Source: an uncultured Bacteroidales bacterium (GTDB lineage Bacteria > Bacteroidota > Bacteroidia > Bacteroidales > Paludibacteraceae). Taken from it: DNA of 64,000 nt. Below, piece by piece: positions 5,462 to 39,520 of this stretch. A program made the position numbers and the translations under genes. The notes under the pieces are model-generated. The model had not been told where the DNA came from and searched no databases. It was given only the letters and a program-made list of their open reading frames with translations. The stretch lies in the NCBI GenBank assembly GCA_900317745.1, contig ONHW01000018.1, positions 35,417 to 99,416 of the forward strand, given 5' to 3'. The first letter of the stretch is position 1. Every line of letters begins with the position of its first letter.

Positions 5462-5469
5462 TTCGGATG

Positions 5470-5501: not shown

Positions 5502-5517
5502 TATTTTTGTAACTTTG
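5486..5517 (+). promoter_or_regulatory. Promoter of the 5542 gene, overlapping the kinase promoter
   Basis: TTTG (5486-5489) is followed 20 bp later by TAACTTTG (5510-5517). Its -33 box lies inside the opposing promoter, so the two should not be occupied by polymerase at the same time. It also shows that translation starts at the ATG at 5542, not at an earlier in-frame ATG at 5467. Confidence 0.8.
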
Positions 5518-5541
5518 TGGCGGATTTCGAAAAATAATCGT

Positions 5542-6081
5542 ATGATAACATCATTTCTCACTGACAGCACCGCTGTACAACAAGCCAAACAAGCCGCGGA
5601 AGCACGCTACGGCAAACGCCCGAACAGTCCCGCTGATTTTGCAGAGCTCAGTCTGCATATCAAGCAGGCGACCGGTCATGACATCAGCAGCGACACGCTG
5701 AGTCGCCTGTGGGGTTACAAGAAAGGCTACGCCCACGTCCGGCATTCGGTGATAGATACGCTGAACAGCTACGGACATGCCGGCGAGGAATCGAACTATA
5801 TCTACCACTCTACCCTCAATGCCGATGATCTGCAGCCAGGCGACAAAGTGCGCATAGCATGGCTGCCGGACAGAGTTTGTACGATAGAATATACAGGCAA
5901 CTATGCCTGGCGCGTAACGGAGGTACAAAACGGCAAGTTACACGCCGGTGACACATTCTTCTGCCGCATGCTCTGCCAAGGCGAACAGCTGGCAGTTGAT
6001 CATCTGCGCTCCGGCGAAAAGATATACGAAGGTTACACCATGGGCGACAAGAACGGGCTAACGCTGGTGGAGAAAATATAA
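5542..6081 (+). CDS. Small regulator-like protein with N-terminal helical (HTH-like) domain
   Basis: 179 residues from the ATG at 5542; the upstream in-frame ATG lies within the promoter and is rejected. Residues 25-85 carry DFAELSLHIKQATGHDISSDTLSRLWGY and HSVIDTLNSYG, a pattern recurrent at the N-terminus of Bacteroidota proteins and resembling a short helix-turn-helix. Residues 95-179 are predicted beta-strands (LQPGDKVRIAWLPDR, YTGNYAWRVTEVQNGKL, GDTFFC), a small barrel-like domain. No membrane segment. The divergent position suggests it may regulate, or be regulated with, the kinase (inference). Confidence 0.78.
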   Translation: MITSFLTDSTAVQQAKQAAEARYGKRPNSPADFAELSLHIKQATGHDISSDTLSRLWGYKKGYAHVRHSVIDTLNSYGHAGEESNYIYHSTLNADDLQPGDKVRIAWLPDRVCTIEYTGNYAWRVTEVQNGKLHAGDTFFCRMLCQGEQLAVDHLRSGEKIYEGYTMGDKNGLTLVEKI

Positions 6082-6261: not shown

Positions 6262-6633
6262 ATGAAACGGATTCTGACCAACGCAAATATGGCAAAACGG
6301 ATTCTGACCTGTATGGTTGCCATGATTCTGGCAGCAGGCAACATGACTGCCGGCGAAGTGAAAATTGACAAAGAGAACTGCACCATAATCAAAGACGGCA
6401 AGACATACAAACTATACGGCAAAGTGAAAATTGTGGACAGCTTCGAAGATATAAAAGTGAAGATAGTGGATTGCTTTGAAGATGTTGATATCAAGATAGT
6501 TGACGCGTTTGAGGACAGTTGCTGCAAGGTGCGGATAGTTGACAGTTTTGAGGATGTGAAAGTAAAGATTGTCGATTCGTTTGAAGATGTCAAGGTTAAG
6601 ATAGTCGAACATTTTGAAGGAGTGAAAAAATAA
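6262..6633 (+). CDS. Exported repeat protein with tandem KIVDSFEDVKV units
   Basis: 123 residues. After the signal peptide, residues 52-120 consist of six units of about 10-12 residues of the form VKIVDSFEDVK (variants IVDCFED, IVDAFED, IVEHFEG), with one insertion DSCC. Such short beta repeats are seen in small exported Bacteroidota proteins (often VDSFPD forms) of unknown role. The start region is duplicated: AAACGGATTCTGACC occurs at 6264-6278 and again at 6294-6308, so there are two possible Met starts (6262 and 6289). The shorter form, starting MAKRILTCMVAMILAAG, is the more normal signal peptide. Likely periplasmic or surface located. Confidence 0.78.
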   Translation: MKRILTNANMAKRILTCMVAMILAAGNMTAGEVKIDKENCTIIKDGKTYKLYGKVKIVDSFEDIKVKIVDCFEDVDIKIVDAFEDSCCKVRIVDSFEDVKVKIVDSFEDVKVKIVEHFEGVKK

Positions 6634-24340: not shown

Positions 24341-24455
24341 TAATTCATAAAAAATAATCGTTCGAACGCATGTGAGATAAGAAAAATAAATGCACATTTG
24401 CAAATATTTCATGAAAAAAATTGTTCGAGTGCAGCAAGAAAGCAATTGCAGGTTA
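24334..24455. repeat. Two tandem copies of a dispersed AT-rich repeat
   Basis: Copy 1 (from 24334) TGCAAATAATTCATAAAAAA then TAATCGTTCGAACGCA; copy 2 (from 24397) TTGCAAATATTTCATGAAAA then AAAATTGTTCGAGTGCAGCA and AGAAAGCAA. A third related copy is at 2552-2605 (TTGCAAATTTATCAGTGAAA then AAATAGTTCAGGTGAAGCAA). The shared core is TTGCAAAT-N-TTCA-TGAAAAAA-TTGTTCgaGTGcAGCAAGAAA. Confidence 0.6.
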
Positions 24456-25790
24456 GCGGACAGTATATTCCGTTTTGAGGTACTCGTTGTTAGGCACGGC
24501 GCTAACGGCTTCGAGCCAGACGTAGTTGTTGTAACGAACGCGCTCGTTCTGATAGCCCATATAAATGGTGCGGTTGCCTTTAGTGGGAATACGTCCGTTG
24601 CAAGACTGCGTACCCATGGTAGAATAATCGACGCTGTATTGCAGTTTGGCAGGATTGGCTCCGTCCTGGAACTTTTTTGCCTGATCTGCACTATAGAACA
24701 CGTACATATTGATGTATGCCTCTTCCTCGCGCGGTGGCTGGTTCTCACCGAGCAAGAGTTCGAACAGACCGGAGCCATGTGACGAGTTGCGTTCGTAGAG
24801 AGGAATACCCAGGAACTTGACTTTCTTGTAAGATTTCAACATATTGTCGCCAAACTTACCATCGGACGAGCGTTGCCCTTCGTTGGTGGATATGCGCAAC
24901 GAATACAGCACATCTTTTGCGCCGGCTGGTACCTGAATAGCGACAATAGCCCTATCAGCATTCGTTGTGCCGGAGAACGTGGCTTTCAGTTGGCTGCGGA
25001 GCGTGAACTTGCGCGGTTCTTCAAACAGGTTTTGCATCTTGATGCCAGGAATCGCTCTGACACGAAAATCGCCTTTCTGTCCTTCAACCTCGCGCGACTC
25101 GACGGTCTTGGTGGTGAATGCACGATTGACTGAGTTAGGTTTGTATGCGATGTCAATGCTTGCGTATTGGCGGCCTTTGGGATTGATCTCCAGCAGATAA
25201 ACAGCTGAGAACTTGATGTCGAGCGAATCCTTGACAAGTTTCTTGCCGATATAGGACTTGAGCAGTTGCCGGCTGTCGGTATTATAGATGCGGATGTCGG
25301 CAGGTTTCTCGGTTTCGATGTTCAGCATCAGTTTGTCGCCCCGCTCGAGATAAACGGGATATTCTGCCGTTTCAGAGAGCAGTTCTTCCGGTTTGCTGAT
25401 GAGCGTATGTGGTTTGTTGCAGACGTTCTGCTGAATCTTATAGGGTAATTGCTGTTTTACCTCATTTATAAGCTCGTTGACCTGCTGCGCCATCGCCAGA
25501 TCTGCCGAATCAAGTTCGGCGGCGTTGTAATTGAGCGACAGTTCATTGCCCAGGCGCTGCAGTTCGTCAACACCTTGCAGCGTGGTGTACTGCTGCGGAT
25601 CAGCCAGCTTGCGCTGCAGGACATCCACCTGTTGCATGGTTTTCTGGCATTCGGATTTGAATGCATCTTCCGCGCTCTGTGTTTGCTGTTGTGCTGCCTG
25701 CTGCCCGTCGGCAGATGTTTTTGCAGACTTGCCACCACATGCGGCGAGTGCCACGGCAGTGATTAGGATAAGGATAGATTTGGTTTTCAT
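24453..25790 (-). CDS. Lipoprotein of unknown function
   Basis: 445 residues. Lipoprotein signal (LAAC, Cys18), then a Gln/Ala-rich linker and a helical coiled region (45-125), followed by an all-beta region to the end (MLNIETEKPADIRIYNTDSR, FTLRSQLKATFSGTTNADRA, PAGAKDVLYSLRISTNEG). The C-terminal part ends YNNYVWLEAVSAVP. No catalytic motif seen. It is probably a periplasm-facing outer-membrane lipoprotein. Related proteins occur widely in Bacteroidales; role unknown. Confidence 0.78.
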   Translation of the reverse strand: MKTKSILILITAVALAACGGKSAKTSADGQQAAQQQTQSAEDAFKSECQKTMQQVDVLQRKLADPQQYTTLQGVDELQRLGNELSLNYNAAELDSADLAMAQQVNELINEVKQQLPYKIQQNVCNKPHTLISKPEELLSETAEYPVYLERGDKLMLNIETEKPADIRIYNTDSRQLLKSYIGKKLVKDSLDIKFSAVYLLEINPKGRQYASIDIAYKPNSVNRAFTTKTVESREVEGQKGDFRVRAIPGIKMQNLFEEPRKFTLRSQLKATFSGTTNADRAIVAIQVPAGAKDVLYSLRISTNEGQRSSDGKFGDNMLKSYKKVKFLGIPLYERNSSHGSGLFELLLGENQPPREEEAYINMYVFYSADQAKKFQDGANPAKLQYSVDYSTMGTQSCNGRIPTKGNRTIYMGYQNERVRYNNYVWLEAVSAVPNNEYLKTEYTVR

Positions 25791-25855: not shown

Positions 25856-25887
25856 CAAAGATACAAAAAATATTTGATATTTGCAAA
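25856..25887 (-). promoter_or_regulatory. Promoter of the 445-residue lipoprotein gene
   Basis: TTTGC (complement of 25883-25887) and TATCTTTG (complement of 25856-25863) spaced 19 bp apart on the minus strand. Leader of about 60 nt. Confidence 0.75.
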
Positions 25888-25983: not shown

Positions 25984-26012
25984 TTTGCAAATTCGGATTT
26001 TTTGTATCTTTG
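25984..26012 (+). promoter_or_regulatory. Promoter upstream of the decayed RelB/DinJ antitoxin gene
   Basis: TTTGC (25984-25988) and TATCTTTG (26005-26012), 17 bp apart. It survives although the gene it served is broken. A rare Shine-Dalgarno-like AGGAGGA lies at 26053-26059 before the ATG at 26067. Confidence 0.65.
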
Positions 26013-26433: not shown

Positions 26434-26482
26434 AAATCCCGTACTGGCAGTATGGCAAATGATATGATTGTCCATTTTGCAA

Positions 26483-26508
26483 GCAGGAGAGCGATTTGGC
26501 TCCCCTGC
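26483..26508 (-). repeat. Island hairpin, copy 1 (GCAGG...CCTGC family)
   Basis: GCAGGAGAGCGATTTGGCTC then CCCTGC folds into a 9-bp stem-loop with one mismatch. It lies 7 bp after the last gene of the island operon. Related hairpins are at 29384-29404, 31481-31506 and 32530-32555. Confidence 0.65.
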
Positions 26509-26514
26509 ATTGTG

Positions 26515-26856
26515 TTATGAGAAAATGTTGTGCTGCGTTTTGGAATATTTGTTGTAGTTCATCAAGACCTGCTTGATTTGTTTGCAAGCAGATTTGTCAA
26601 GGCAACGGGCAGTGAGTTTGCCACCAACGGCCTGAATGGTTATATCCGCACCAATTAAGTGCTCGTCAACCACCACGCGGCGGATAAAGCGGAAAGCCAG
26701 CGTATCTTCGTCAACACCGATCAGGTACTTGTTGCGCTTGCGGATAGTGATGGTTTGTTCATCGGTGTCAATCTCTATTTGCCACGGTGTCAATATATCC
26801 GCAGCACGGCCATTAGCCAACAATGCGGCTTCGGAAGAAGAATATTTGTAAGTCAT
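26515..26856 (-). CDS. Small beta-rich protein, possibly PH-like, last gene of the accessory island operon
   Basis: 113 residues without signal peptide or membrane helix. Alternating strands (DILTPWQIEIDTDEQTITI, RKRNKYLIGVDEDTLAFRFI, RRVVVDEHLIGADITIQAVG) end in a C-terminal helix (DKSACKQIKQVLMNYNKYS). Strands followed by one helix are the layout of PH-like domains, but this is only a topology argument. It begins 3 bp after the YkvA gene stop, so it is probably part of the same mRNA. Function unknown. Confidence 0.7.
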   Translation of the reverse strand: MTYKYSSSEAALLANGRAADILTPWQIEIDTDEQTITIRKRNKYLIGVDEDTLAFRFIRRVVVDEHLIGADITIQAVGGKLTARCLDKSACKQIKQVLMNYNKYSKTQHNIFS

Positions 26857-26859
26857 GGA

Positions 26860-27384
26860 TTATCTTTTGTTTATAAAATTATTTGCTCCTTTTATAATTT
26901 CTGTTACCGAGTCCAATGCTTTTTCGTCGAACTCTCCAAAAAGATTGCGTAATTGTTCTTTCGCCTCATTTTGAATATCTTCCGTTATGCAAGATGCAAG
27001 TGCTGTAATAGTGGCGGTAATTGCTGCTATATCATCAGTATAACCCATTCCTGCAATTGCATCAGGGAGAAGATCCACAGGAAGTACAAAATAGCCGAGA
27101 GTACCTATAATCATAGCCTTCTCTTTCAGATTGATATCTCCTGATTTAAGCAAGTAGAATAACAAAAACACAGGATAAAGGACAGTGGCACCGATAGATT
27201 TTCCGAACTTACCTATTTTCTGCCACAATTCACTTTCCGAGAAATATTTCTCGTACAAATTAAGGTTGGCAGTAATATCTTCCAACTTAATCTCAGAAAT
27301 GGAAGCCTTCATTTTGTTTGTGCTTTCTGATACTTTTTGTGAAGCAGCAGAAGCTGTTTGTTTGATAGAATCTATAAATCCCAT
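26860..27384 (-). CDS. YkvA/DUF1232-family membrane protein
   Basis: 174 residues from the ATG at 27384, 7 bp after the stop of the upstream gene; a longer in-frame start at 27486 would overlap that gene by 95 bp and is less likely. The hallmark GYFVLPVDLLPDAIAGMGYT plus DD at about 114-135 defines DUF1232 (YkvA), with a membrane segment before it (ATVLYPVFLLFYLL). The N-terminal 60 residues are an amphipathic helix (SASQKVSESTNKMKASIS). The family is widespread and its function is not established. Here it is linked to TerB-like genes. Confidence 0.85.
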   Translation of the reverse strand: MGFIDSIKQTASAASQKVSESTNKMKASISEIKLEDITANLNLYEKYFSESELWQKIGKFGKSIGATVLYPVFLLFYLLKSGDINLKEKAMIIGTLGYFVLPVDLLPDAIAGMGYTDDIAAITATITALASCITEDIQNEAKEQLRNLFGEFDEKALDSVTEIIKGANNFINKR

Positions 27385-27391
27385 AAATACG

Positions 27392-28159
27392 CTATTTATA
27401 CTTTTTGTATTGTTCGGATAATTCGGATAGTTTAGTTTTAAATTGTCTATCACCATTAAACATTCCTCCTGCGAGTTCTTTTGCATCGGTAAAGAGACTA
27501 TCCACCTTGCTGCGCCAAGCGTTGGCTAATTCTTCAGCATCTCTAACAATGGCTTGCTGCGCCAATTGCTCAAGATTATCTACGGCTTTTCCGGCAATGC
27601 CTAATGTAGCGACTTTGGCAGTCAGAGTGACTGCTTTAAGCGCTACAAATCCGATATTGGTTGCTGTTTTTAAGGCCTTAGTCGACAAGTCTTTCTTGGT
27701 GTAAGGAAGAGCATGAGCAATCAAATCAAGCATTGTTTCCTTATTTGCGGGAGAAACGATGCTACTAATATACGTCAACTGTGCACGGTGCAGTTTTTCC
27801 CTATCACCTTTCTCCAGTTTCTTGTTTGAGAAATCGGAAAGGATTTCGTATTTCTGAAATGTTTGGGTTACTGAGTCAGTTGGTGAATATAAATTGGCAC
27901 TGATAACAGCATTCACTTCTTCCGGACTAACCTGTGCAGGTTGCTCATCCTCTTTCTGTTTCTTTGCAGGTGCCTTTGGGAGGCGACTTTCGATAATCAA
28001 ATCCAGTTCGTCCTCACTGATGTCATGTTTTGCGGCCTCGGCACGCAGGACATTCAGTTTCTTCTCGGTTATTTCCCCATCTTTGAGAGCCATATTTAAC
28101 AAAGCCTCAAGTTTGGCAGGCAGCTGATACTGCTCGCTTTTTCGATTAAAAAGTCCCAT
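27392..28159 (-). CDS. TerB-like helical protein (long form)
   Basis: 255 residues. Residues 10-60 (YQLPAKLEALLNMALKDGEI, TEKKLNVLRAEAAKHDISED) match the N-terminal half of TerB-like domains, whose acidic residues bind metal. A Lys/Glu/Pro linker (65-82) leads to a helical C-terminal domain with a hydrophobic stretch (TATNIGFVALKAVTLTAKVA) that could insert in or lie on a membrane. No enzymatic motif. It lies between the Pcp-like gene and the YkvA gene, all tightly spaced, so probably one functional unit. Confidence 0.75.
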   Translation of the reverse strand: MGLFNRKSEQYQLPAKLEALLNMALKDGEITEKKLNVLRAEAAKHDISEDELDLIIESRLPKAPAKKQKEDEQPAQVSPEEVNAVISANLYSPTDSVTQTFQKYEILSDFSNKKLEKGDREKLHRAQLTYISSIVSPANKETMLDLIAHALPYTKKDLSTKALKTATNIGFVALKAVTLTAKVATLGIAGKAVDNLEQLAQQAIVRDAEELANAWRSKVDSLFTDAKELAGGMFNGDRQFKTKLSELSEQYKKYK

Positions 28160-28171
28160 AGGTTTATAGAA

Positions 28172-28711
28172 TTAGAAATATTTAATTAACTGATTTATTG
28201 TTTGTTTTGCTGTTTCTACATCCATGTTCTTCGGGATATGGACGAAAAGCGAATTTGTGGTGTGTCGCAGAGCCTCAAAATAGATGCGGTTGCAAACATA
28301 CAAGCCTGCGGAGTTGGAAACCTTAGTCGGTAATCCGGCATTTACACAATCGGCACATAATTGCTTAACAGGAAGAGCGGTTTTTAATGCCAAAGACGCT
28401 TCGGGACAGATCAATTCTTCATCCGGAATATAGCCGTCATTGTCTCCTTTGGCGCTATCCATCATGTTGATTGCCAGACGTTCCAGGCGAATCTTGTCTC
28501 CTTCAGCCGCTTGTCCCATGGAGATAATCACATCCGGTTGGAACTTCTCAATCGCTTCGTTGAGCACTTCAGGCGCACGACGAAAACTAACGGGCAGAAG
28601 AAGTTTCGTAACATCTGCCTTAATAGCATCCAATACCTTTTGCGAGATATTGGTGTCATTTGCGCCAAAAGGCTCAAAAGCAGTTACAAGAATGCGCACA
28701 TTAGTCTGCAT
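28172..28711 (-). CDS. Pyroglutamyl-peptidase I-like cysteine peptidase
   Basis: 179 residues from the ATG at 28711; seven further codons upstream are open but correspond to the end of a duplicated channel-gene fragment. C15 family features: ILVTAFEPFG (5-16), GQAAEGDKIRLERLAIN with Glu77, SNSAGLYVCN with Cys140, and FVHIP with His158, so the catalytic triad is intact. True enzymes remove N-terminal pyroglutamate; it is slightly short (about 215 expected) and substrate is unknown. The same start region recurs at 29774, where it overlaps the stop of the ion-channel gene, showing that the two were once translationally coupled. Confidence 0.85.
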   Translation of the reverse strand: MQTNVRILVTAFEPFGANDTNISQKVLDAIKADVTKLLLPVSFRRAPEVLNEAIEKFQPDVIISMGQAAEGDKIRLERLAINMMDSAKGDNDGYIPDEELICPEASLALKTALPVKQLCADCVNAGLPTKVSNSAGLYVCNRIYFEALRHTTNSLFVHIPKNMDVETAKQTINQLIKYF

Positions 28712-28856
28712 AATCACTATATCCAATACCACTATTTTTCAAATCTTGCACTTCAGGATTACCGGTGTGGTTGATTTGCCGGTTGATCTGCTCGGCTATT
28801 GTTTGAAGCACTTGCATCGAACGCGTATCCCAACACATGACACTCCACGCAACACG
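28701..28856 (-). pseudogene. Duplicated 3' end of the ion-channel gene
   Basis: About 155 bp that nearly match the last codons of the channel gene (29764-29919), including the same ending GIGYSDYAD-type residues and stop. Similarity stops abruptly near 28856. It lies immediately before and overlapping the start of the intact Pcp-like gene. Upstream to 28984 nothing recognisable is seen. Confidence 0.8.
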
Positions 28857-28984
28857 CTGACTGACCGCATTGACTTTATGTTGCAGATTGCGTGCGAAAT
28901 TAGTGGATTGGGAGTTATTATAAATGTTTTAGTACTCCTTTATGTTTTTTTATGCAGTCTAGATACCATCATTATATACTAAAC

Positions 28985-29362
28985 TCATCTCCGATTAGAT
29001 TTAAAACGCATGTCTGGTGTGCCGTCTTTTTTTAAGTGAACCACTGCACCACCACCGAGGCCTGCTAATAGTAGTATCGGCACGAGCCAAACAAGCTTGT
29101 TGCTTCCTACATTTAGATATTCAGCATATACGTATGCTTCCTTATCACCATATTCAATTTTTGCCCAACTCCCTTCAAATGATATCACTTCTACATCATC
29201 TAAATGATTTATTTTTCCGATAATTTTCCCATTTCTAGATGGCGTAGCACGAACGTTCAAACCATTTTCTGGTGCTACATTGTAGGTCTCAGTATCGGAA
29301 CAACTCGCAAACATAAGTATTGACGCCACAACACAAACGTATAAAAAATGTCTATATTTCAT
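28985..29362 (-). CDS. SH3-domain lipoprotein with C-terminal membrane helix
   Basis: 125 residues. Lipoprotein-like signal (MFASC, Cys21), bacterial SH3 domain at about 30-88 (ENGLNVRATPSRNGKIIGKI, SFEGSWAKIEYGDKEAYVYA), then a C-terminal transmembrane segment (LVWLVPILLLAGLGGGAVVH) and a basic tail. Bacterial SH3 domains commonly bind peptidoglycan or peptides. Two anchors would clamp it to the membrane with the SH3 outside. It appears to sit within the duplicated channel-pcp segment of the island. Confidence 0.82.
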   Translation of the reverse strand: MKYRHFLYVCVVASILMFASCSDTETYNVAPENGLNVRATPSRNGKIIGKINHLDDVEVISFEGSWAKIEYGDKEAYVYAEYLNVGSNKLVWLVPILLLAGLGGGAVVHLKKDGTPDMRFKSNRR

Positions 29363-29383
29363 AATATTTTTTGTTTTGTGAGT

Positions 29384-29404
29384 GAGGGAGCGTTCAAACT
29401 CCCC
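29384..29404 (-). repeat. Island hairpin, copy 2
   Basis: GGGAG CGTTCAAA CTCCC, the shortest member of the GGAG/CTCC hairpin family with the characteristic GNTCAAA loop; see 31481-31506 for the fullest match. Confidence 0.55.
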
Positions 29405-29600
29405 AACTCTGTTTGGCTAACAAAAGCAATGAACAAAAAGGTGTTAGTGACAATGAATCACCAAAATATGTATTAAGCACTTCTCGTTCAAAATAATTAG
29501 AACCCTCTTTATTTATTTCAAAAGAAAATTTAATTAGCTCTTCTAAAGCAATCAAGGGAGCAGTATAAATCGTTAGTTATTTTGTCAATTTTACTACCTC

Positions 29601-29774
29601 TCATAACTTTGCCCGCATCCAAACTTGAGAGACAAGCAAATATTTGCTTACCGGGTTTAATTGTTTTACCGCAACATCTGCCTGAATAGCATCCAACACT
29701 CGTTGCGAAATATTGGTGTCGCTTCCGCCAAAAGGCTCAAAAGCAGTTACAAGAATGCGCACATTAGTCTGCAT
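29601..29774 (-). pseudogene. Truncated 5' end of a second Pcp-like gene
   Basis: The ATG at 29774 overlaps the channel stop codon (ATGCAGACTAA). The first 31 codons match the intact Pcp-like gene (MQTNVRILVTAFEPFGGSDT), then sequence diverges after DAIQADVA and ends at 29601 without any catalytic residue. Together with 28701-28856 it marks a tandem duplication or rearrangement. Confidence 0.8.
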
Positions 29775-31461
29775 AATCACTATATCCAATACCACTATTT
29801 TTCAAATCCTGCACTTCAGGATTACCGGTGTGGTTGATTTGCTGGTTGATCTGCTCGGCTATTGTTTGAAGCACTTGCATCGAACGCGTATCCCAACACA
29901 TGACACTCCAAGCAATCCGTAGTCCGCACGCATTTATTTTGAACGGCCATTTACGGGCATAAACGCGTGGACTTGAGTTGTCATAATAACGCTGATTATC
30001 TGTATCCAAATCAAACTGCTTCTTCAGCGCATCCGCTACTGCATGCCACATCTTGTCGTACAACGGAATATCATGGATTGTGATATTGGGGTCGCTGTAC
30101 GTCTCATCCCCTTTCTTCACGCCGCAAGTGAAATGAATCTGTGTAGGATAAATAGGCTCCTGCGCTCCGCTGGCTGCCATCAGAGTAATTACCCACGAGT
30201 CTTCATCGGGCGCCAATTCACGCAAATCATCCATGTATTCTTTCAGATATGGCACTGTGTCTTCCCCATCATTGAGATAAAATGATTTAAATGGTCGCGG
30301 AGCTCCTATTTCTCTGCTGATATAGTTAAATCCTCCCATCTTGGCAAGATAAAATGCCGCCCATCCGGTAATCGCATCAGCCGAAGCTACAGCATTCATG
30401 ATGGTAATTTTTGAATGGCGGTTGATACAACATCCATAAGGACGATTGAGTGGGAAATGTTCCACTGCCAATTTGTCTTCCGCCTGTTCTTCTATTGTTC
30501 GTGTCGCTGCCAAATTGATTAAACGGAACTCATCACTGTTAGCTACCGCATCGAATATCTCGTCTTCTTTTAGTCCCAAGCGCACTTGGATATCGGCAAT
30601 AGAGACAAATTTTGGCGTAGCAAAAAATTGTGTAAAACGGTCTCTTTTACGTTCAAAAGCCAAGTGCAAACGCTCAGCCCATCCTTCGGATTTCTCTTTG
30701 CGCTCATCTTTCTCCATCACTTCGGAGAAAGCGGAGCCAATCAATCCGGCAGGAACGGCAAATATAGCTATTCCGAGTACACCGATGATACAGGCTATAA
30801 TACGACCGGTGATGGTAATAGGCGGTGTGTCTGCGAAGCCACCAGGATCGCCAATATATTGCGCAAATGCCCAAAGAACAGATGTCCATCCATTATTATA
30901 TACCTCAGGCTGCGCCTCGTGCTCAACAAAGAATAGAATGAACGAGAGGATAAGTGTGATGATTGTCAAGAACTGAACAGACACCCACATCTCATCTTTC
31001 TTGGCACGCATGGCACGTGAGAGGACATTGAACGCCTTCATGTATCGGAACACACGCAGCAGACGGGCTATTCGCAATGCCTTGAGTGCCACATAAGGCA
31101 TTGGCATGAAGAAATGCAGGTAGAAGGGATATGTGGAGAGGATGTCTATCAGGCCATAAAACGAGAAGCAGTAACGCACTCTGCCCCAAAAACCTTTGTA
31201 TTTGTCGTCAATGAGGTCGGCGCACCAAATACGCAGCGAGACTTCAATGGTGAAGAACACTGTGGTAAAATAATCCACCACTTTGAGCCAAAGACCGTAC
31301 TTCTCCACGATGCCATCGTACGTAGAAAGAAAGACCTCAACCGTCGAAAGGATGATTAGTCCGATAATAGCGTAATCGACATAGTTATGCCATTGTTTGG
31401 TGTGCAGGTCATCGTCGAAGACGCGAGCTAGCTCTAATTTGAAAGATTGTATTTTAGTCAT
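29764..31461 (-). CDS. Voltage-gated-channel-like protein with large C-terminal soluble domain
   Basis: 565 residues. Six membrane helices: S1 about 30-46, S2 61-81, S3 95-115, S4 124-144 with regularly spaced charges (R130, R133, R136, R139, K142), S5 160-181 and S6 219-248. The pore loop (about 192-215) reads AFAQYIGDPGGFADTPP and lacks the K+ filter TVGYGD. After S6, a 300-residue cytoplasmic tail contains NRHSKITIMNAVASADAITG, DGEDTVPYLKEYMDDLRELA and INACGLRIAWSVMCWDTRSM and matches no family I recognise. The stop overlaps the start of a Pcp-like reading frame, implying coupled translation. Ion selectivity cannot be assigned; the tail may be enzymatic or a sensor. Confidence 0.85.
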   Translation of the reverse strand: MTKIQSFKLELARVFDDDLHTKQWHNYVDYAIIGLIILSTVEVFLSTYDGIVEKYGLWLKVVDYFTTVFFTIEVSLRIWCADLIDDKYKGFWGRVRYCFSFYGLIDILSTYPFYLHFFMPMPYVALKALRIARLLRVFRYMKAFNVLSRAMRAKKDEMWVSVQFLTIITLILSFILFFVEHEAQPEVYNNGWTSVLWAFAQYIGDPGGFADTPPITITGRIIACIIGVLGIAIFAVPAGLIGSAFSEVMEKDERKEKSEGWAERLHLAFERKRDRFTQFFATPKFVSIADIQVRLGLKEDEIFDAVANSDEFRLINLAATRTIEEQAEDKLAVEHFPLNRPYGCCINRHSKITIMNAVASADAITGWAAFYLAKMGGFNYISREIGAPRPFKSFYLNDGEDTVPYLKEYMDDLRELAPDEDSWVITLMAASGAQEPIYPTQIHFTCGVKKGDETYSDPNITIHDIPLYDKMWHAVADALKKQFDLDTDNQRYYDNSSPRVYARKWPFKINACGLRIAWSVMCWDTRSMQVLQTIAEQINQQINHTGNPEVQDLKNSGIGYSDYAD

Positions 31462-31480
31462 TGTTTATTGTGTTTTGTAA

Positions 31481-31506
31481 GCAGAGGAGCGGTCAAACTC
31501 CCCTGC
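31481..31506 (-). repeat. Island hairpin, copy 3
   Basis: GCAGAGGAGCGGTCAAACTC then CCCTGC, stem GCAG-x-GGAG / CTCC-x-CTGC around loop CGGTCAAA, between the channel gene and the upstream VDGR-family gene. May act as an intercistronic processing or stability element (inference). Confidence 0.65.
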
Positions 31507-31520
31507 CCAGTGCGGTAAGA

Positions 31521-31835
31521 TTACTTACCAGCAGCTGCGATTGTGCCGTCGTTGTCTGCGAGGTCAGTGTCCTTTGCATTAGCAACCTGAACACCGATAC
31601 CAAATGCAGTAGCGAACTCTTTCTCGAAGTTACCAACGCGCTTGTTGCCGCCTACGGTAACTTCACCACCCTTTGCGTCTGCGGAACGAAGCGATGCCAA
31701 AGTAGCATCATCGTCAGCAAATGCACCTTTGCAGGTTACACTTTTGTACACGCGCAGAGTAGCGCCAAAGTTCTTCTTGAAATTCTCTTTCAGAGTTTTT
31801 ACCTTCATGCGGCCGTCAATCTTAAGATCTGCCAT
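31521..31835 (-). CDS. VDGR/FGxTLRVY-family small protein, paralogue 1
   Basis: 104 residues with no signal peptide. It starts MADLKIDGRMKVKTLKENFK then KNFGATLRVYKSV, followed by DDDATLASLRSADAKGGEV, NKRVGNFEKEFATAFGIGVQ and ADNDGTIAAAGK. This order of motifs also makes up the protein at 32571, so the two are paralogues. Predicted alternating strands and helices, cytoplasmic. I know this family only as conserved hypothetical proteins and cannot give a function. It flanks the PD-(D/E)XK-like gene together with its paralogue. Confidence 0.82.
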   Translation of the reverse strand: MADLKIDGRMKVKTLKENFKKNFGATLRVYKSVTCKGAFADDDATLASLRSADAKGGEVTVGGNKRVGNFEKEFATAFGIGVQVANAKDTDLADNDGTIAAAGK

Positions 31836-31929
31836 AATTGTAAAAATTTAAAGTTAATAAATGATCATTTATTGCCTGCAACGTTAAGGACTGCAGGCGA
31901 TGTCCTATACGTTATTTCCCGACGTCTTC

Positions 31930-32502
31930 TCACACGTACATTATATATATATTGTTTGTATCCAAATGCTCAGCGGGAGAATACAACTTGACGTGCTCGG
32001 TCTTTTTGATGATCTTGGCTACGCATTCATCAATATGATCGCTGCAATCCATTACAACCATGAACTTGTAGTACGGAGCAACAGAAGGGATATCGCTTTT
32101 CTTCTTGCCTTTCAGCAAATGCTCAATGTCTTCTAAAATACCCTCTTCTTGCGCCGCTCCAAAAGAAGTTACATTGACAGGGATATTGCATTTAACCTCA
32201 GCGATAATCTTCTTGTCTTTACCATCATACTGGACATCAAAGCCATTGGCATTGGCGTGCTGGGAATCTACATCTTTCAGTATTTGTTCTCTTTCTGATT
32301 TTGTCAGGAAACCGTCAGCATACAACTTCTCCACAAAATCCCGGGTTGTACGCAATGTAATGATATTATTAATACAACTTAGCAACTTCTTGAGCTCAAT
32401 CAAATCCCGCCCGGAAAGTTTGGAATACAAGTCATTTACTCCGAATTTACCGAAGAATTCGTTGAAGTTCTGCTTCAAATCTTTGTCTCTGCTATATGCC
32501 AT
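31930..32502 (-). CDS. PD-(D/E)XK nuclease-like protein
   Basis: 190 residues, soluble. The N-terminal 80 residues are helical (FGVNDLYSKLSGRDLIELKK). The core GFDVQYDGKDKKIIAEVKCN (residues 87-106) has the D-x(12)-E-x-K layout of PD-(D/E)XK nucleases: Asp89, Glu102 and Lys104 at the ends of adjacent strands. It continues with VAPYYKFMVVMDCSDHIDEC. It could instead be a catalytically dead relative. It lies between the two VDGR-family genes, which suggests partnership. Confidence 0.7.
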   Translation of the reverse strand: MAYSRDKDLKQNFNEFFGKFGVNDLYSKLSGRDLIELKKLLSCINNIITLRTTRDFVEKLYADGFLTKSEREQILKDVDSQHANANGFDVQYDGKDKKIIAEVKCNIPVNVTSFGAAQEEGILEDIEHLLKGKKKSDIPSVAPYYKFMVVMDCSDHIDECVAKIIKKTEHVKLYSPAEHLDTNNIYIMYV

Positions 32503-32529
32503 ATTGCTCTGATTTTAAGATTGTTGTAA

Positions 32530-32555
32530 GCAGGCGGGCAGCCAAACCCACCTGC
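32530..32555 (-). repeat. Island hairpin, copy 4
   Basis: GCAGGCGGGCAGCCAAACCC then ACCTGC forms stem GCAGG-x-GGG / CCC-x-CCTGC with loop CAGCCAAA, between the paralogue-2 gene and the PD-(D/E)XK-like gene. Confidence 0.65.
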
Positions 32556-32570
32556 CTGAAAATGAACCGT

Positions 32571-32918
32571 TTACTTTGCGTATTTAGCTTTCAGCGACTC
32601 CATGTCGGCTTTGGTTGCCTGCTTGGGGATATCGGGCAGTTTAGCCAAAGTCATCTGATCAAGAGCGAGAACCCAGTCATCAGCAGAAGCAACTTGTACT
32701 TTGAGACCGAAATTGTCAAGCAAATCTTTCTCAAAGCCACCTACAGTCTTGCTGCCACGGCACTCGTACGAACCGGTAGCCGTAGCAATATCTGCTACTT
32801 TCTCAGCACCGGTCAGACGTTTGTTGCCCTGATAAACACGAAGAGTTCCGCCAAATTCCTCTTTGAATCGGCTGCACAAGGTTGACACCAATAGGCGTCC
32901 ATCTACTTTAATTTCCAT
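32571..32918 (-). CDS. VDGR/FGxTLRVY-family small protein, paralogue 2
   Basis: 115 residues: MEIKVDGRLLVSTLCSRFKE then EFGGTLRVYQGNK, AEKVADIATATGSYECRGSK, TVGGFEKDLLDNFGLKVQVA and ALDQMTLAKLPDI. It aligns over its full length with the 31521 protein but has a longer C-terminal helix (KADMESLKAKYAK). Soluble, no signal peptide. Same operon, 30 bp after the TerB-like gene. Unknown function. Confidence 0.82.
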   Translation of the reverse strand: MEIKVDGRLLVSTLCSRFKEEFGGTLRVYQGNKRLTGAEKVADIATATGSYECRGSKTVGGFEKDLLDNFGLKVQVASADDWVLALDQMTLAKLPDIPKQATKADMESLKAKYAK

Positions 32919-32948
32919 AAATACTAAATTATTTGAAGTTAAACATTG

Positions 32949-33365
32949 TTAATCAGCCATATTGATGGTCAGGTCCGGTTCGGACTTAACCATATCGGCA
33001 AGCATGAGAATAGCATCTTCCTCCTCTATACCGAGCGCCTCGGCTATAACGAGCAGGTTGCTCACCTCTGCACGACTCAGCTCACTATCGGCGAGAAGCA
33101 TTTGCATTGCAGCTTCGAATACAATTCCGATCTCTTCATCTTCCACAGCCTCTGCTGCATCTTTCAGCACAGCGTTTGCCTGGTTCTCGGATAGTCCGTT
33201 CAAACCCTTGACACATTTGTTAACGGCTGCTTTGAACTTTGCCTCATCGAGTTCGAGAGCCTCGGCTATTTCTTCTACGGTAATCTCCTCTGCGGGATCA
33301 TAGACACCGTCTGCCCAGATTGCAGCTGCAATGATAGCAGCAATATTTTCAAGACTTGTTTTCAT
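32949..33365 (-). CDS. TerB-like acidic helical protein (short form)
   Basis: 138 residues, strongly acidic and helical. The layout NIAAIIAAAIWADGVYDPAE with EEITVEEIAEALELDEAKFK, then a second half with MQMLLADSELSRAEVSNLLV and IAEALGIEEEDAILML, matches the two-fold TerB/TerB-like fold in which Asp/Glu at ADG and ADS positions bind Ca2+ or other divalent ions. Such proteins are cytoplasmic and occur in tellurite/stress and phage-defence associated operons. The second TerB-like protein of this operon is at 27392. Confidence 0.85.
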   Translation of the reverse strand: MKTSLENIAAIIAAAIWADGVYDPAEEITVEEIAEALELDEAKFKAAVNKCVKGLNGLSENQANAVLKDAAEAVEDEEIGIVFEAAMQMLLADSELSRAEVSNLLVIAEALGIEEEDAILMLADMVKSEPDLTINMAD

Positions 33366-33374
33366 ACTTCCTCC

Positions 33375-33509
33375 TTATCTGAATAAGCGTTTAATACGGT
33401 TTGCTAAACTGTTTTGCGCTTTGCGGGCTTTTGCCATGCGTGCACAAATCTCCTTACCTTCTTTGGTACGTTTATCAACAGTACCATCTGCTTTTTTCTT
33501 TACTGCCAT
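33375..33509 (-). CDS. Tiny basic protein, DGTVDKRTKEGK family, copy 2
   Basis: 44 residues: MAVKKKADGTVDKRTKEGKE, then ICARMAKARKAQ, ending RIKRLFR. Very basic, with no hydrophobic segment. It shares ADGTVDKRTKEGKxICARMA plus KAR with the next ORF upstream (33518-33655), only 8 bp away, so they are tandem paralogues. Conserved sequence and position inside the operon argue that it is a real gene despite its length. Nucleic-acid binding is plausible from charge only. Confidence 0.75.
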   Translation of the reverse strand: MAVKKKADGTVDKRTKEGKEICARMAKARKAQNSLANRIKRLFR

Positions 33510-33517
33510 AGCTGAAA

Positions 33518-33655
33518 TTATTTTTTAGTTTTCTTTTGAAGTTTACGAGCTCTTGCGGCTGCTCGACGTGCCTTTGCCATACGGGCGCAGATTGCTTTGC
33601 CCTCTTTGGTGCGTTTGTCAACCGTTCCATCGGCGTTTTTTCTTACACAAGCCAT
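33518..33655 (-). CDS. Tiny basic protein, DGTVDKRTKEGK family, copy 1
   Basis: 45 residues: MACVRKNADGTVDKRTKEGK, AICARMAKARRAAARARK, ending LQKKTKK. About 40% Lys/Arg. Tandem paralogue of 33375-33509; the identical middle motif with different ends indicates selection on the motif. Located between the OmpA-family gene and its paralogue. Confidence 0.75.
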   Translation of the reverse strand: MACVRKNADGTVDKRTKEGKAICARMAKARRAAARARKLQKKTKK

Positions 33656-33707
33656 AATTGTGATGTTTTAGGGTTAATTGATTAGATATATTGTGTACTT
33701 TTTGTAC

Positions 33708-34628
33708 TTATTCCAGAACAATAAATTCCGTACGACGGTTCTCCGATGCCATAGGATCAGCGGTGTTCTTCAGTTCGGTAGAACCTTTGCCGACAGCCTC
33801 CAAACGGGATGCATCAATGCCCTCATGTTCTACAAGGAATGTAACGGCAGCCTGGGCGCGTGCTTCGCTGAGCTTCTGATTGAACTCGGCATCGCCTTCG
33901 GCAGATGTGTGTCCCTCAAGACGCAGGCGGATCTCAGGATTCTTCTGCATGATTTTTGCCAGATCATGAAGCACGAACTTGGCACTTTCGCTCAAGTCGG
34001 CTTTGCCCTTGACGAACTCGGCTGCATTGAAGTTCTTCTCAATCTCCTCGATCTGCTGCACATAGAGTGTGTCGTGAACAACCACTACTTTCTCCACTTC
34101 TACAATCTGCGGTTCAGCAGGTTTCTGGCAGCCCTTCATAAGCAAGAGAATAACCAGAATTGCAATAACTACGAGAGCTGCCAGACAGATCCACAACCAT
34201 TTGTTGGATTTCTTGGCAGGTACAGGAGGAACATAGCCGTTCAGGTACTCCAGGCGGAAACCGCCCTTCTCACCTCTCTGACCTTTCTCGAACTCTGCCA
34301 CCTCGATGTCATACAACTTTGCATGCTTAACCAAACGATCAAAACTGGCCTTGGTCCACATCATGCAAACTGCCACCTTTGAACCATCTTCCAGTACAAG
34401 AACTTCGTCCTCTTTCTCAAAGTACCATTCTCCGGAAGCTTTGTAGTCCGGCTCTGAATCATGAACGAAAATCTCACTCACGCCCGAATCAGGATTGATG
34501 TCTGCTTTCGGGAACGCTTTTCTCAGATCCTCAACCGTTGCTTGGGGATACATTACTAAGTAGGCATGCATGATGCCCAATGAAGTACGGTTTTGCGCCT
34601 TACCATAAACGCGAACTTTACTTGGCAT
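33708..34628 (-). CDS. OmpA-family protein with novel cytoplasmic N-terminal domain
   Basis: 306 residues. There is no signal peptide; residues 1-140 form a globular domain with NRTSLGIMHAYLVMYPQATV then EDLRKAFPKADINPDSGVSE and strands around WYFEKEDEVLVLEDGSKVAV. A single membrane helix (about 145-165, WLWICLAALVVIAILVILLL) is followed by a coiled linker and an OmpA peptidoglycan-binding domain (about 200-306; RLRLEGHTSAEGDAEFNQKL, GKGSTELKNTADP). So the head is cytoplasmic and the OmpA domain grips the cell wall, as in MotB-like proteins. It could transmit wall status to the cytoplasmic TerB-like and PD-(D/E)XK partners (inference). Confidence 0.88.
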   Translation of the reverse strand: MPSKVRVYGKAQNRTSLGIMHAYLVMYPQATVEDLRKAFPKADINPDSGVSEIFVHDSEPDYKASGEWYFEKEDEVLVLEDGSKVAVCMMWTKASFDRLVKHAKLYDIEVAEFEKGQRGEKGGFRLEYLNGYVPPVPAKKSNKWLWICLAALVVIAILVILLLMKGCQKPAEPQIVEVEKVVVVHDTLYVQQIEEIEKNFNAAEFVKGKADLSESAKFVLHDLAKIMQKNPEIRLRLEGHTSAEGDAEFNQKLSEARAQAAVTFLVEHEGIDASRLEAVGKGSTELKNTADPMASENRRTEFIVLE

Positions 34629-34659
34629 AATAAATAAATTTTTAGGTTAATATTGTTGT

Positions 34660-34821
34660 TTACTTACGTTTTCTTCCTCCTGTGAACGCAGATAGCACGG
34701 TTTGTCCGACCTTGCGCTCGAGGCCTTGTCTGGTGGTGGGGATACCCGTTTTGCGGACAATTTTGTTTTTCAAGCCGCTGATGCCAACGGCACGCTTAAG
34801 CGAAAATGTTAGTCCTTTCAT
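34660..34821 (-). CDS. Small basic protein MKGLTFSL-type, first gene of the island operon
   Basis: 53 residues: MKGLTFSLKRAVGISGLKNK, IVRKTGIPTTRQGLERKVGQ, ending in GGRKRK. Basic, helical, no signal peptide. I recall similar short proteins in Bacteroidota starting MKGLTFSLxRAxGI, here heading the TerB/OmpA operon. Spacing of 31 bp to the OmpA-family gene supports co-transcription. Function unknown; the charge suggests nucleic acid or membrane-surface binding. Confidence 0.72.
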   Translation of the reverse strand: MKGLTFSLKRAVGISGLKNKIVRKTGIPTTRQGLERKVGQTVLSAFTGGRKRK

Positions 34822-34843: not shown

Positions 34844-34851
34844 CAAAGATA
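34844..34851 (-). promoter_or_regulatory. Probable -7 box of the island operon promoter
   Basis: TATCTTTG on the minus strand, 23 bp before the ATG at 34821. No TTTG box lies at the expected 19-20 bp; the nearest is about 12 bp away (34864-34867), so the promoter may need an activator. Confidence 0.5.
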
Positions 34852-34903: not shown

Positions 34904-34935
34904 TTTGCAAATCACAACTATTTTTCGTATCTTTG
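34904..34935 (+). promoter_or_regulatory. Strong consensus promoter driving a region without a gene
   Basis: TTTGC (34904-34908) and TATCTTTG (34928-34935) are 20 bp apart. Transcription would start near 34942 and enter the structured non-coding interval, divergent from the island operon. Confidence 0.75.
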
Positions 34936-35283: not shown

Positions 35284-35679
35284 TCAGCCGATCAATGCTA
35301 TGATTTTATTCATCAAACTCTCTACCAACGGAAGGTACATCCGAATCTCGTCCTCAGTTACTTCAACGAAATCCTCGTAATCGCCTTCTTGGCGAAGTGT
35401 AAACATTTTTCTCAACAGACGACCATCATCCTTGGAGAGTTGACCGTTCTGCACAAAATGTTGATTAATAAGGGTCAACATTCCTCCATGCGTATGTACT
35501 GCTATCTGATTATGTATCAGCAATGCAGTAGCTGCATAGTACAAACAATAGTACAAGCGGTTGGCAACTATGTTCCAAATTCCCAATGCAACTATCTTCT
35601 GAGCCTCTACAAAAGTGCTCTGCGCCTTTTCAATCCTGTAATTGACGATTGATTGTCGTTCATCGTTGGTTAACCCCAT
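35284..35679 (-). CDS. HEPN-domain toxin-like protein of an MNT/HEPN pair
   Basis: 131 residues, all-helical. IVNYRIEKAQSTFVEAQKIV, NIVANRLYYCLYYAATALLI and THGGMLTLINQHFVQNG are the HEPN pattern of small bacterial toxins, with a helix-end FVEVTEDEIRMYLPLVESLM. The canonical RX4-6H ribonuclease motif is not clear, so it may belong to the HEPN group without it. It overlaps the nucleotidyltransferase gene by 10 bp, the usual arrangement of MNT/HEPN toxin-antitoxin systems. Confidence 0.85.
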   Translation of the reverse strand: MGLTNDERQSIVNYRIEKAQSTFVEAQKIVALGIWNIVANRLYYCLYYAATALLIHNQIAVHTHGGMLTLINQHFVQNGQLSKDDGRLLRKMFTLRQEGDYEDFVEVTEDEIRMYLPLVESLMNKIIALIG

Positions 35680-35993
35680 ATTTTCACTCCTTCGTTACGA
35701 ACGTTAAACTTAAAGATTGACGGAGGTGCTGCTTCCCACTCGCGCTGCGTATAGACAAATGTGTTGAATTCCTGATTTATACTCTGCCCTTGCTCCCAAA
35801 AATCGCACGAGAGATTAAGTTTGTCATCTTTTGAGAAATTCTGATTCGGCACAAGAGCCAACAGATCCCAATCGGAATCTGCGCGATGGTCGCCACGAGC
35901 ACGCGAGCCATACAAATATAGCGAACTTCCCTGAGGTAGCACTTGGCGCGCTATCTCCTGGATTTTCACTATGATATTTTCACGACTCGACAT
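35670..35993 (-). CDS. MNT-type minimal nucleotidyltransferase (antitoxin)
   Basis: 107 residues. The nucleotidyltransferase signature GSRARGDHRADSDWDLLALV at about 29-48 (GSxARG ... SDxDL) is complete. In MNT/HEPN systems the nucleotidyltransferase neutralises the HEPN toxin, in known cases by nucleotidylating it. First gene of the pair, own promoter at 36066-36097. Confidence 0.9.
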   Translation of the reverse strand: MSSRENIIVKIQEIARQVLPQGSSLYLYGSRARGDHRADSDWDLLALVPNQNFSKDDKLNLSCDFWEQGQSINQEFNTFVYTQREWEAAPPSIFKFNVRNEGVKIWG

Positions 35994-38951: not shown

Positions 38952-39127
38952 TTAGCAATCAGTAGTCAGTAATCAGATATCGGCTATCAGCAGTCAGCTA
39001 TCCTCTCGGCAACCATCGGTTGCCCCAACCCGAAAAAGCAACTGCCAAGTTGGTTTTTCGGAGAGCGGAGGCAATGGTGCGCTTTATGCCGCCGAGCGGC
39101 ATCTGTAAGCACCATTTGCCGAACGCG
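38952..39127 (-). other. lepA-ssrA interval with three stacked hairpins
   Basis: A 7-mer tract (CAGTAGTCAGTAATCAGA type, 38957-39000) is followed by three hairpins: GGCAACC-ATC-GGTTGCC (39008-39024); CCGAAAAA / TTTTTCGG with an inner ACTTGG-type pairing (39030-39061); and a nested one, GGCAATGGTGC / GCACCATTTGCC enclosing ATGCCGC-CGA-GCGGCAT (39070-39120). They lie directly 3' of tmRNA and 5' of lepA, so they may process or terminate ssrA or act as a lepA leader. Confidence 0.6.
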
Positions 39128-39520
39128 TGGAGATAGCGGGAGTCGAACCCGCGTCCAAACAAGGAATCAATACGCTTTCTACACGCTTATCTTGGCCTCG
39201 ATTTTCGTCCGGCAGCAAGACCCAAGCCACCAACTACCGGCTTATCTGCTAAATCTTCACACGCGCATCGCAGCCTGCGCATGCTATTCTGTGAATTTCC
39301 GCGCCACTTGATCCATTCAGCCCACAGACTCGGCTTGGAGTGACGTCTCGGGTCAGCACCTTGTGCCGACACAAAGCCAACCTACTATACTTCGGTTTAA
39401 GCAGCGAGAGCTACATTGTTGTTGCCAGTTATTGTTTTACAGACGATATTTACGAGCGTCTCTGCAGTGCTCGGCGTGCTTACATACCTATTCTACCTGC
39501 TGTCAAAACCAATTATCCCC
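39128..39520 (-). ncRNA. ssrA: Transfer-messenger RNA (tmRNA)
   Basis: The 5' end GGGGATAATTGGTTTTGACA (complement ending 39520) and 3' tRNA-like end GCGGGTTCGACTCCCGC followed by TATCTCCA are diagnostic; 5' GGGGATA pairs with 3' TATCTCC. CCA is not encoded. The tag frame begins at GGC after TAAAACAATAACT and reads Gly-Asn-Asn-Asn-Val-Ala-Leu-Ala-Ala then TAA (around 39397-39426). It rescues stalled ribosomes and tags the nascent chain for degradation. Own promoter upstream. Confidence 0.96.

Follow-up and report, generated by a model that had tools for sequence, protein, structure and literature searches.

The 64,000-nucleotide stretch of DNA analysed here (the window; contig ONHW01000018.1 of an uncultured Bacteroidales bacterium, whose genome is a 2.6-Mb draft) contains a run of minus-strand genes from 34821 to 26515, hereafter the operon. 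Judged by comparison with related sequences, the operon is one copy of a conserved system, found in Bacteroidota, whose parts are mixed and matched; on balance, this system probably defends against phages or other incoming DNA. The architecture of the system is plain: a recurrent list of parts is encoded in one direction, the parts are shuffled from locus to locus and fused to one another, one position (the slot) holds one of several alternative genes that nearly exclude one another, and an RNA hairpin (R1) recurs between the genes.

A sequence-only reading of the window had described a minus-strand run with short gaps, and such a run is present: genes are separated by 3 to 94 bases or overlap slightly, except for gaps of 238 and 273 bases flanking the SH3 gene. 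Most of the products it had named were also right, as indicated by the Pfam matches below. Of the two TerB-like proteins it proposed, the first matches Pfam TerB, but the second shows a sub-threshold DjlA similarity and no Pfam TerB match. The parts of the operon, in order of transcription and followed by one outlying member, are these.

34844 to 34851, minus strand: −7 promoter box TATCTTTG ahead of the first gene, with a −33 box (TATG, one mismatch) at the usual spacing
34660 to 34821, minus strand: tiny53, a basic protein of 53 amino acids, first gene of the operon
33708 to 34628, minus strand: OmpA306, with a conserved N-terminal head of about 140 amino acids, one transmembrane segment (by eye) and an OmpA wall-binding domain (Pfam OmpA, 8e-18)
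33518 to 33655, minus strand: tiny45, a basic peptide with the DGTVDKRTKEGK motif
33375 to 33509, minus strand: tiny44, a paralogue of tiny45
32949 to 33365, minus strand: TerB-like protein of 138 amino acids (Pfam TerB, 4.4e-7)
32571 to 32918, minus strand: VDGR1, member of a family built of two repeats of about 50 amino acids
32522 to 32563, minus strand: R1 hairpin between VDGR1 and the slot gene (44.7 bits)
31930 to 32502, minus strand: PDX190, the slot gene, flanked by two VDGR genes; putative PD-(D/E)XK nuclease, by motif only
31521 to 31835, minus strand: VDGR2, the query that anchored the searches
31473 to 31514, minus strand: R1 hairpin between VDGR2 and the channel gene (50.2 bits)
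29764 to 31461, minus strand: Chan565, a six-helix ion channel (Ion_trans, 6e-21) with pore AFAQYIGDPG and a C-terminal domain of about 300 amino acids and unknown fold
29670 to 29940, minus strand: first copy of a direct repeat, covering the channel tail and the start of the pcp remnant
29601 to 29774, minus strand: truncated pcp remnant
29374 to 29415, minus strand: R1 hairpin ahead of the SH3 gene (45.2 bits)
28985 to 29362, minus strand: SH3 lipoprotein (SH3_3, 7e-12) with a C-terminal transmembrane segment (by eye) and a tail, KKDGTPDMRFKSNRR, resembling the tiny44/tiny45 motif
28607 to 28877, minus strand: second copy of the direct repeat, covering a channel-tail remnant and the start of the intact pcp gene
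28172 to 28711, minus strand: Pcp-like peptidase (Peptidase_C15, 1.7e-36)
27392 to 28159, minus strand: protein of 255 amino acids, weakly TerB/DjlA-like (DjlA, 0.014, below the cut-off)
26860 to 27384, minus strand: YkvA (DUF1232) protein of 174 amino acids, start revised (DUF1232, 2e-13)
26515 to 26856, minus strand: orf113, found in 6 of 84 related loci, adjoining YkvA or the channel
26475 to 26516, minus strand: R1 hairpin at the end of the operon (40.9 bits)
24453 to 25790, minus strand: LP445 lipoprotein, a member of the system outside the operon coordinates, with its own promoter match (25856 to 25887)

Comparison with relatives makes 27384 the most likely YkvA start. The direct repeat is 271 bp long, its copies are 92% identical, and it brackets the SH3 gene, carrying the pcp remnant and the second copy of the channel tail; a duplication or insertion at the SH3 gene is therefore indicated. 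The operon had been called AT-richer, which agrees with its G+C content (41–46% versus about 50–55% across much of the remaining window), but low-G+C stretches also occur near 2–5 kb and 62–64 kb.

Conserved clustering across genomes, which the earlier reading had proposed to look for, was found. The unbiased measure of co-occurrence rests on 247 genomes drawn evenly from the order, of which 11 (from 10 of 173 genera) encode a match to VDGR2. LP445 was detected in 7 of these genomes, 5 of them also carrying VDGR (P = 1e-6); the OmpA head in 9, again with VDGR in 5 (P = 7e-6); and the full-length channel in 6, of which 5 carry VDGR (P = 4e-7). Any channel match, full-length or not, occurs in 104 of the 247. 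The shared LP445, OmpA head and channel genes lie within about 10 kb of VDGR on the same contig. Outside VDGR clusters, the head, LP445 and the channel were found in 4, 2 and 1 genomes, respectively; in one such place (L036) LP445 stands with a YkvA-like and orf113-like stretch. VDGR1 was found in 3 of 41 relatives, the window's own genome counted, 2 of those being among 25 genomes of the genus. Across the phylum, 10 of 395 genomes, the window's among them, contain a VDGR match. In a genome of another class, a short run (L136, 259 to 1803) encodes VDGR, a protein of 113 amino acids, the OmpA head and tiny44, which we read as a minimal set. Eight genomes of the same class (L137 to L144) hold distant single VDGR-like proteins in other surroundings, most of them ending in TDxWTL. 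Among the 11 VDGR genomes of the order sample, one has a minus-strand run (L034, 7810 to 10745) that encodes two proteins with a VDGR N terminus together with GIY-YIG-like, DEDDh-exonuclease-like and 145-amino-acid proteins (by eye) and looks like a compact form lacking the OmpA anchor.

A scan of one genome per species (84,980 species) recovered 204 stretches encoding a VDGR relative, and the best 80 of these yielded 79 loci. With four others and the window they make up the 84 loci compared here, or 80 once near-identical loci are joined; the 79 were fetched with VDGR2 and the set is hence biased to VDGR. Contig ends cut many loci, which inflates both the number of distinct gene orders and the number of loci without a slot gene, and VDGR2 or PDX190 of the window was added by hand to several locus counts (for example gene order and slot exclusivity). 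The hosts of the 79 loci are classified in Bacteroidales families, Bacteroidia or Bacteroidetes, and many come from animal guts; the named isolate species is Porphyromonas uenonis (two strains), and two Candidatus names are presumably Bacteroidales.

The families recovered are VDGR in 79 of the 84 loci (156 copies), an 80-amino-acid coiled-coil protein in 61, the OmpA head in 53, the channel in 51, F4 in 47, a Ser/Thr kinase in 46, tiny53 in 37, LP445 in 35, Pcp in 32, TerB in 31, PDX221 in 22, a KAP NTPase in 16, PDX452 in 15 and tiny44 in 15. These counts are lower bounds, because small genes that lie beneath longer antisense frames escape the gene caller. The coiled-coil family is missing from the window. 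TerB proteins had been proposed as the sensors; their presence in 31 loci, against 79 for VDGR, does not favour this. Neighbouring core genes lie on the same strand in 662 cases and on opposite strands in 0. Nevertheless, 83 different gene orders occur among the 84 loci, contig ends contributing part of this number.

The small domains VDGR, KGAL, the DGTVDKRTKEGK peptide, TerB and the OmpA head are found both as standalone proteins and fused to each other. By family profiles, the fusions are KGAL with the OmpA head (8), VDGR with the OmpA head (6), tiny44 with VDGR (2), KGAL with VDGR (2), KGAL with F16 (2), KGAL with PDX452 (2), VDGR with TerB (1) and F28 with TerB (1). VDGR itself is a tandem repeat of a unit of about 50 amino acids (hhalign 97.7%, P = 2e-12) and has no match in Pfam, NCBIfam or PADLOC. 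A ubiquitin-like (beta-grasp) fold for VDGR, attractive by eye, was dropped. Its best PDB profile rows are ubiquitin, but with a non-significant E value of 0.26; E1_UFD was matched by 2 of 38 members (best 0.00046) and ubiquitin by 1 (0.17); and in hhalign the first repeat scored 2.7% against the ubiquitin fold, which is more than any of 40 column-shuffled controls reached (1.2% at most) and less than the scores of two cluster families unrelated to it (25% and 15%). Against solved structures, the OmpA head and KGAL gave nothing significant. The tail motif of the SH3 lipoprotein was also considered as a widespread docking tail and set aside, since beyond the tiny peptides and the two tiny44–VDGR fusions it was seen in 2 SH3-type proteins, too small a number to propose such a role. 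The pore motif of the channel is present in 44 of 49 full-length channels, counting a variant of the motif, and the C-terminal domain of the channel has no PDB match. The earlier suggestion that the channel is an effector was not borne out.

The slot is the most variable position of the system. Its gene adjoins VDGR in 47 of 68 cases and usually belongs to one of five families, PDX221, PDX452, GIY197, PDX190 and F16. PDX452 matches PDDEXK_4 (1e-9) and GIY197 matches GIY_YIG_2 (2e-12) in Pfam, while PDX221 has a conserved LDIV...ELK motif and no Pfam match. For PDX190, the PD-(D/E)XK assignment of the sequence-only reading rests on the motif, FDVxY...AEVK being invariant in 4 of 4 homologues (two near-identical pairs), and finds no Pfam nuclease match; the protein is a putative nuclease of this type. 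The five families are nearly exclusive: exactly one was found in 58 of the 80 dereplicated loci, two in 4 and none in 18. In shuffled data, 15.2 loci with two or more slot families were expected, and 0 of 20,000 shuffles gave a number as low as 4. The OmpA proteins of two loci (L045 and L048) are 91 to 93% identical to that of the window and yet have other genes in their slots, from which we infer recent slot swapping.

Nuclease effectors in a stress or anti-phage logic had been suspected from the window alone, and the slots of related clusters back this suspicion with homologues of three anti-phage proteins. UzuA belongs to a defence system, as its PADLOC naming indicates, and the slot protein of L029 matches it over residues 26–305 of 305 (1.5e-63, PADLOC), its Pfam GIY-YIG similarity being sub-threshold (0.012). 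In L099 the slot encodes a LEM-3-type GIY-YIG protein that matches PD-T4-3 (8e-41 over residues 4–196 of 246) and LEM-3_GIY-YIG (3e-15); by eye, similar proteins occur in L091 and, adjoining F16, in L084. The slot of L096 encodes a PvuRts1I-type enzyme with an SRA domain (PADLOC 1e-67; Pfam 1e-31 and 3e-18), and proteins like it are present in L088 and L104, both of which also hold a listed slot family. PD-T4-3 is reported to be a nuclease dependent on 5-hydroxymethylcytosine (5hmC) or its glucosylated form (5ghmC) that degrades such DNA and protects against T-even phages (PMC12923530); PvuRts1I is described as a 5hmC-specific restriction endonuclease (PMC4157451). In PADLOC, one KAP protein of the loci showed similarity to PifA (5e-32) and QatA (1e-21), and one kinase to mad6 (1e-36) and PD-T4-6 (2e-35). 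Two TIR-domain proteins were seen immediately after one cluster (L046, 15980 to 18060).

R1 consists of a 12-bp stem that varies in sequence and a loop of six bases, YTGAYC. In a simple scan, 54 such hairpins turned up in the spaces between cluster genes on the strand of the cluster, spread over 40 of the 84 loci, against 1 on the opposite strand within clusters and 4 in intergenic sequence outside (8 inside predicted genes were not used). A comparison made without selecting hairpins agrees: a folding energy below −16 kcal/mol within 60 bases past the stop codon was found for 46% of 173 VDGR genes, compared with 19% of 516 outside genes (P = 2e-6) and 9% of 64 channel genes. Strand and place enrichment and this folding comparison are the independent evidence for R1. 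An alignment of 37 hairpins combines 35 of the 39 distinct ones with two copies from the window, included by hand. Both partners vary at 11 of its 12 pairs, and covariation is 0.819 versus 0.267 after shuffling; these pair statistics arise partly by construction, because the rows were chosen for pairing and loop.

With a covariance model at E = 0.01, the four copies in the operon were the sole matches in the 2.6-Mb genome, among the 150 of 410 first-look candidates scored (genome scans scored at most 150 per genome). Related loci gave 79 matches in 48 of 83, and the cluster strand carries each of them but one, in L097, which overlaps its mirror match. Leaving out this mirror match and the weakest match, 77 were placed: 55 follow VDGR, 5 the gene for the 80-amino-acid protein and 4 the gene of a tiny basic peptide. 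Their median distance from the stop is 18 nucleotides, and the next gene is mostly that of the 80-amino-acid protein, GIY197, VDGR or the channel. Such strict strandedness and placement fit a role in RNA better than an attC-like recombination site. Because no U run follows the copies in the window, we read R1 as a 3′-end protector that may raise the small proteins over the effectors. In E. coli, RNA structures are reported to protect operon segments and give differential decay (PMC5927463); the parallel is loose, because those structures lie mostly inside coding regions. No Rfam family was found in the operon at the gathering threshold. That R1 is exclusive to the system was considered and rejected, since congeners without a VDGR match also contain it: twice in a reduced tiny53/F4/kinase cluster of one genome (G004), in other places too, and, in three congeners (L129, L131 and L132), ahead of a yebC-like gene (by eye). 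R1 is thus neither exclusive to the system nor universal in it.

The sequence-only reading had seen no internal consensus promoter. Bacteroidetes-type promoters combine a −7 and a −33 box; inside the operon the sole full match to TTTG-N17-22-TAnnTTTG lies at 29308–29337, within the SH3 gene, and four more matches to the −7 box alone (30759, 29334, 29308 and 28293) each fall in coding sequence. Two similar plus-strand promoter-like sites (25984 to 26012 and 34904 to 34935) form inverted arms at both ends of the operon, facing outward, with no obvious gene downstream on the plus strand; possibly they give rise to antisense or small RNAs. About 20 kb from the operon lies a divergent gene pair whose homologues flank or join many clusters.

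4319 to 5461, minus strand: Ser/Thr kinase with a transmembrane segment (by eye), homologue of the kinase flanking many clusters and a possible regulator
5467 to 6081, plus strand: F4 homologue, divergent from the kinase gene and a candidate DNA-binding partner of the kinase

A conserved segment of F4 resembles a DNA-binding helix-turn-helix (by eye), and F4 has no Pfam match and nothing significant against the PDB. A second such pair stands alone on another contig of the same genome. In a congener without a VDGR match, a single run (L128, 6525 to 13160) contains tiny53, unknown genes, two R1 hairpins, F4 and the kinase, and seems to be a pared-down or variant version of the system.

How the parts might work together can be outlined. 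Small adaptor proteins would form a scaffold in the cytoplasm that the OmpA protein ties to the cell wall; at the envelope, this scaffold would hold or restrain the nuclease of the slot, which in the window is PDX190. Once foreign DNA enters or the wall is damaged, the nuclease may be freed to cut DNA. The channel and its Pcp partner could form a second arm, with the membrane or peptides as its target. The hairpins would protect upstream mRNA, keeping the small proteins in excess over nuclease and channel, and the kinase/F4 pair may control expression. A bolder proposal, on which we are evenly divided, is that this is an undescribed class of immune apparatus: a wall-tethered scaffold of interchangeable adaptor domains (VDGR, KGAL, DGTVDKRTKEGK and the OmpA head) into which lineage-specific anti-phage nucleases, channels and kinases are plugged, with a hairpin setting the adaptor excess and with evolution by operon reshuffling.

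Several observations weigh against a defence function. Pcp, TerB, YkvA, DUF4230 and the SH3 lipoprotein also fit envelope physiology. PDX190, the slot gene of the window itself, has no nuclease match in PADLOC or Pfam; F16 is without known function; and 18 of the 80 loci lack all five slot families. The kinase and KAP similarities are at the superfamily level and alone do not mean defence. In 4 of the 11 VDGR genomes, VDGR lies without the other parts in the fetched stretch (in one case a 5.5-kb contig), and several of the distant VDGR-like proteins adjoin universal-stress-, LOG-family-, Hsp20- or response-regulator-like genes (by eye). The R1 model had no match in 7 of 9 VDGR-bearing genomes tested, and the R1 matches in congeners lacking VDGR count on the same side. 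Neither the 50,697 phage nor the 72,556 plasmid records searched contain a match to VDGR2, and a strict pattern scan, which distant copies could escape, found none in viral contigs. The mobility that had been proposed for the operon gained no support here: the system is patchy, but besides these null results, the genes scanned beside the operon (HEPN/MNT, SprT-like and LepA) are not mobile-element genes, and no integrase, transposase or relaxase was found among the proteins scanned in or beside the cluster, which include part of the flanking genes. Among 18 congeneric genomes, the flanking SprT-like gene is present in 8 and the 352-amino-acid gene in 14 (each count includes the genome of the window); the two share a contig in that genome only, so the comparison could not reveal an empty site.

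The main rival, which we consider unlikely though worth serious attention, is a Ter-type operon that serves homeostasis under envelope or metal stress. In this view anchor, TerB, YkvA, SH3 lipoprotein, channel and peptidase sense and repair wall or ion imbalance, and the nucleases either act on damaged DNA or have an incidental presence. Published stress operons are a setting in which TerB and YkvA occur; the loci repeatedly encode DUF4230, lipoproteins and outer-membrane-like proteins; and distant VDGR-like proteins lie beside Usp-, CBS- and Hsp20-like genes (by eye). Homeostasis does not, however, predict that the most variable position should be a slot of near-exclusive genes, several of them nucleases, nor that UzuA, PD-T4-3 and PvuRts1I homologues should fill it, and the operon proteins include no match to TerC or TerD.

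That the locus is a hot spot collecting unrelated accessory genes without joint function appears improbable. The multitude of gene orders, the fresh-looking 271-bp duplication and the genes seen once in many loci would suit it, but it accounts poorly for strict co-direction, repeated fusion of the same domains, slot exclusivity and the persistence of a VDGR/OmpA head/tiny44 set in a genome from a different class. Slightly less probable still is an array of inter-bacterial weapon and immunity cassettes, in which the nucleases would be toxins for export and each small protein would confer immunity to its cognate toxin: exchangeable nucleases do adjoin small proteins and tandem paralogues are present, but the slot proteins have no secretion signals by eye, no delivery module was found among the families scanned, and the same small-protein families pair with different slot genes, unlike cognate immunity proteins.

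Some further features of the window and of related loci were noted. Just upstream of the operon lies a HEPN/MNT nucleotidyltransferase pair (35284 to 35993), separated from it by a hairpin and T-run terminator (by eye); the MNT protein matches the PADLOC candidate PDC-S09 (3e-10). Downstream of the kinase gene, 1535 to 2488 encodes an apparently secreted protein resembling extracellular endonuclease I (by eye). Elsewhere in the window, 6262 to 6633 encodes a small, apparently exported protein of KIVDSFEDVKV-like repeats; exported repeat proteins of another kind (GRYTNTSDILYTWDGK) occur in some related loci, such as L096 and L106. A transfer-messenger RNA (tmRNA) with the tag peptide GNNNVALAA is located at 39127 to 39520.

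If the defence reading is correct, nucleases catalogued as single-gene defences would in some Bacteroidales belong to one larger machine, built on a shared chassis of VDGR, OmpA head and basic peptides. This chassis would then be a marker for new effectors, each slot occupant being a candidate anti-phage protein, and several protein families without known function would gain testable partners. The system would also show how operons evolve in nature by shuffling, with expression ratios perhaps kept by a portable RNA hairpin. The literature searches, which did not extend to subscription journals and preprints, yielded no description of this system, and this is weak evidence of absence.

Among known systems, Ter stress systems comprise TerB, TerC, TerD and YkvA, and the operon shares with them its TerB-like and YkvA proteins; it differs in that TerB is optional across the loci. 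Zorya is the nearest working analogue, having in common an OmpA-type wall-binding protein, an ion path through the membrane and a DNA-cutting effector. Zorya is reported to need wall binding, and its nickase ZorE to be recruited to the membrane (PMC11890865). The operon has the wall-binding OmpA-type membrane protein, the binding being predicted; its OmpA region is the only one to match ZorB (8e-7), and none of 10 operon proteins matches ZorA, for which reason the operon is not filed as Zorya. It differs further in that its channel, of the six-helix Ion_trans kind, has an unusual pore, its OmpA protein carries a conserved head, and its adaptor proteins are many and small. UzuA, PD-T4-3/CMoRE and PvuRts1I-type enzymes have homologues that fill the slot in some related loci, but PDX190 of the window is none of them, and elsewhere PD-T4-3 acts alone, all 274 systems detected being single-component (PMC12923530).

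A parallel in design is offered by the conflict systems coupled through effector-associated domains (EADs), which are MoxR-vWA, iSTAND or GTPase-centric and use small non-enzymatic domains fused to a core component and to effectors, with OmpA domains behind transmembrane segments in a subset (PMC7159879). KGAL behaves similarly here, standing alone and on the OmpA head, PDX452, F16 and VDGR. No MoxR ATPase or vWA was matched in Pfam among the operon proteins and cluster families scanned, which cover part of the locus genes; the core is instead VDGR with the OmpA head. The searches made found no known system that shares this core, while the principle of adaptor-coupled effectors on which it appears to be built is itself already established (PMC7159879).

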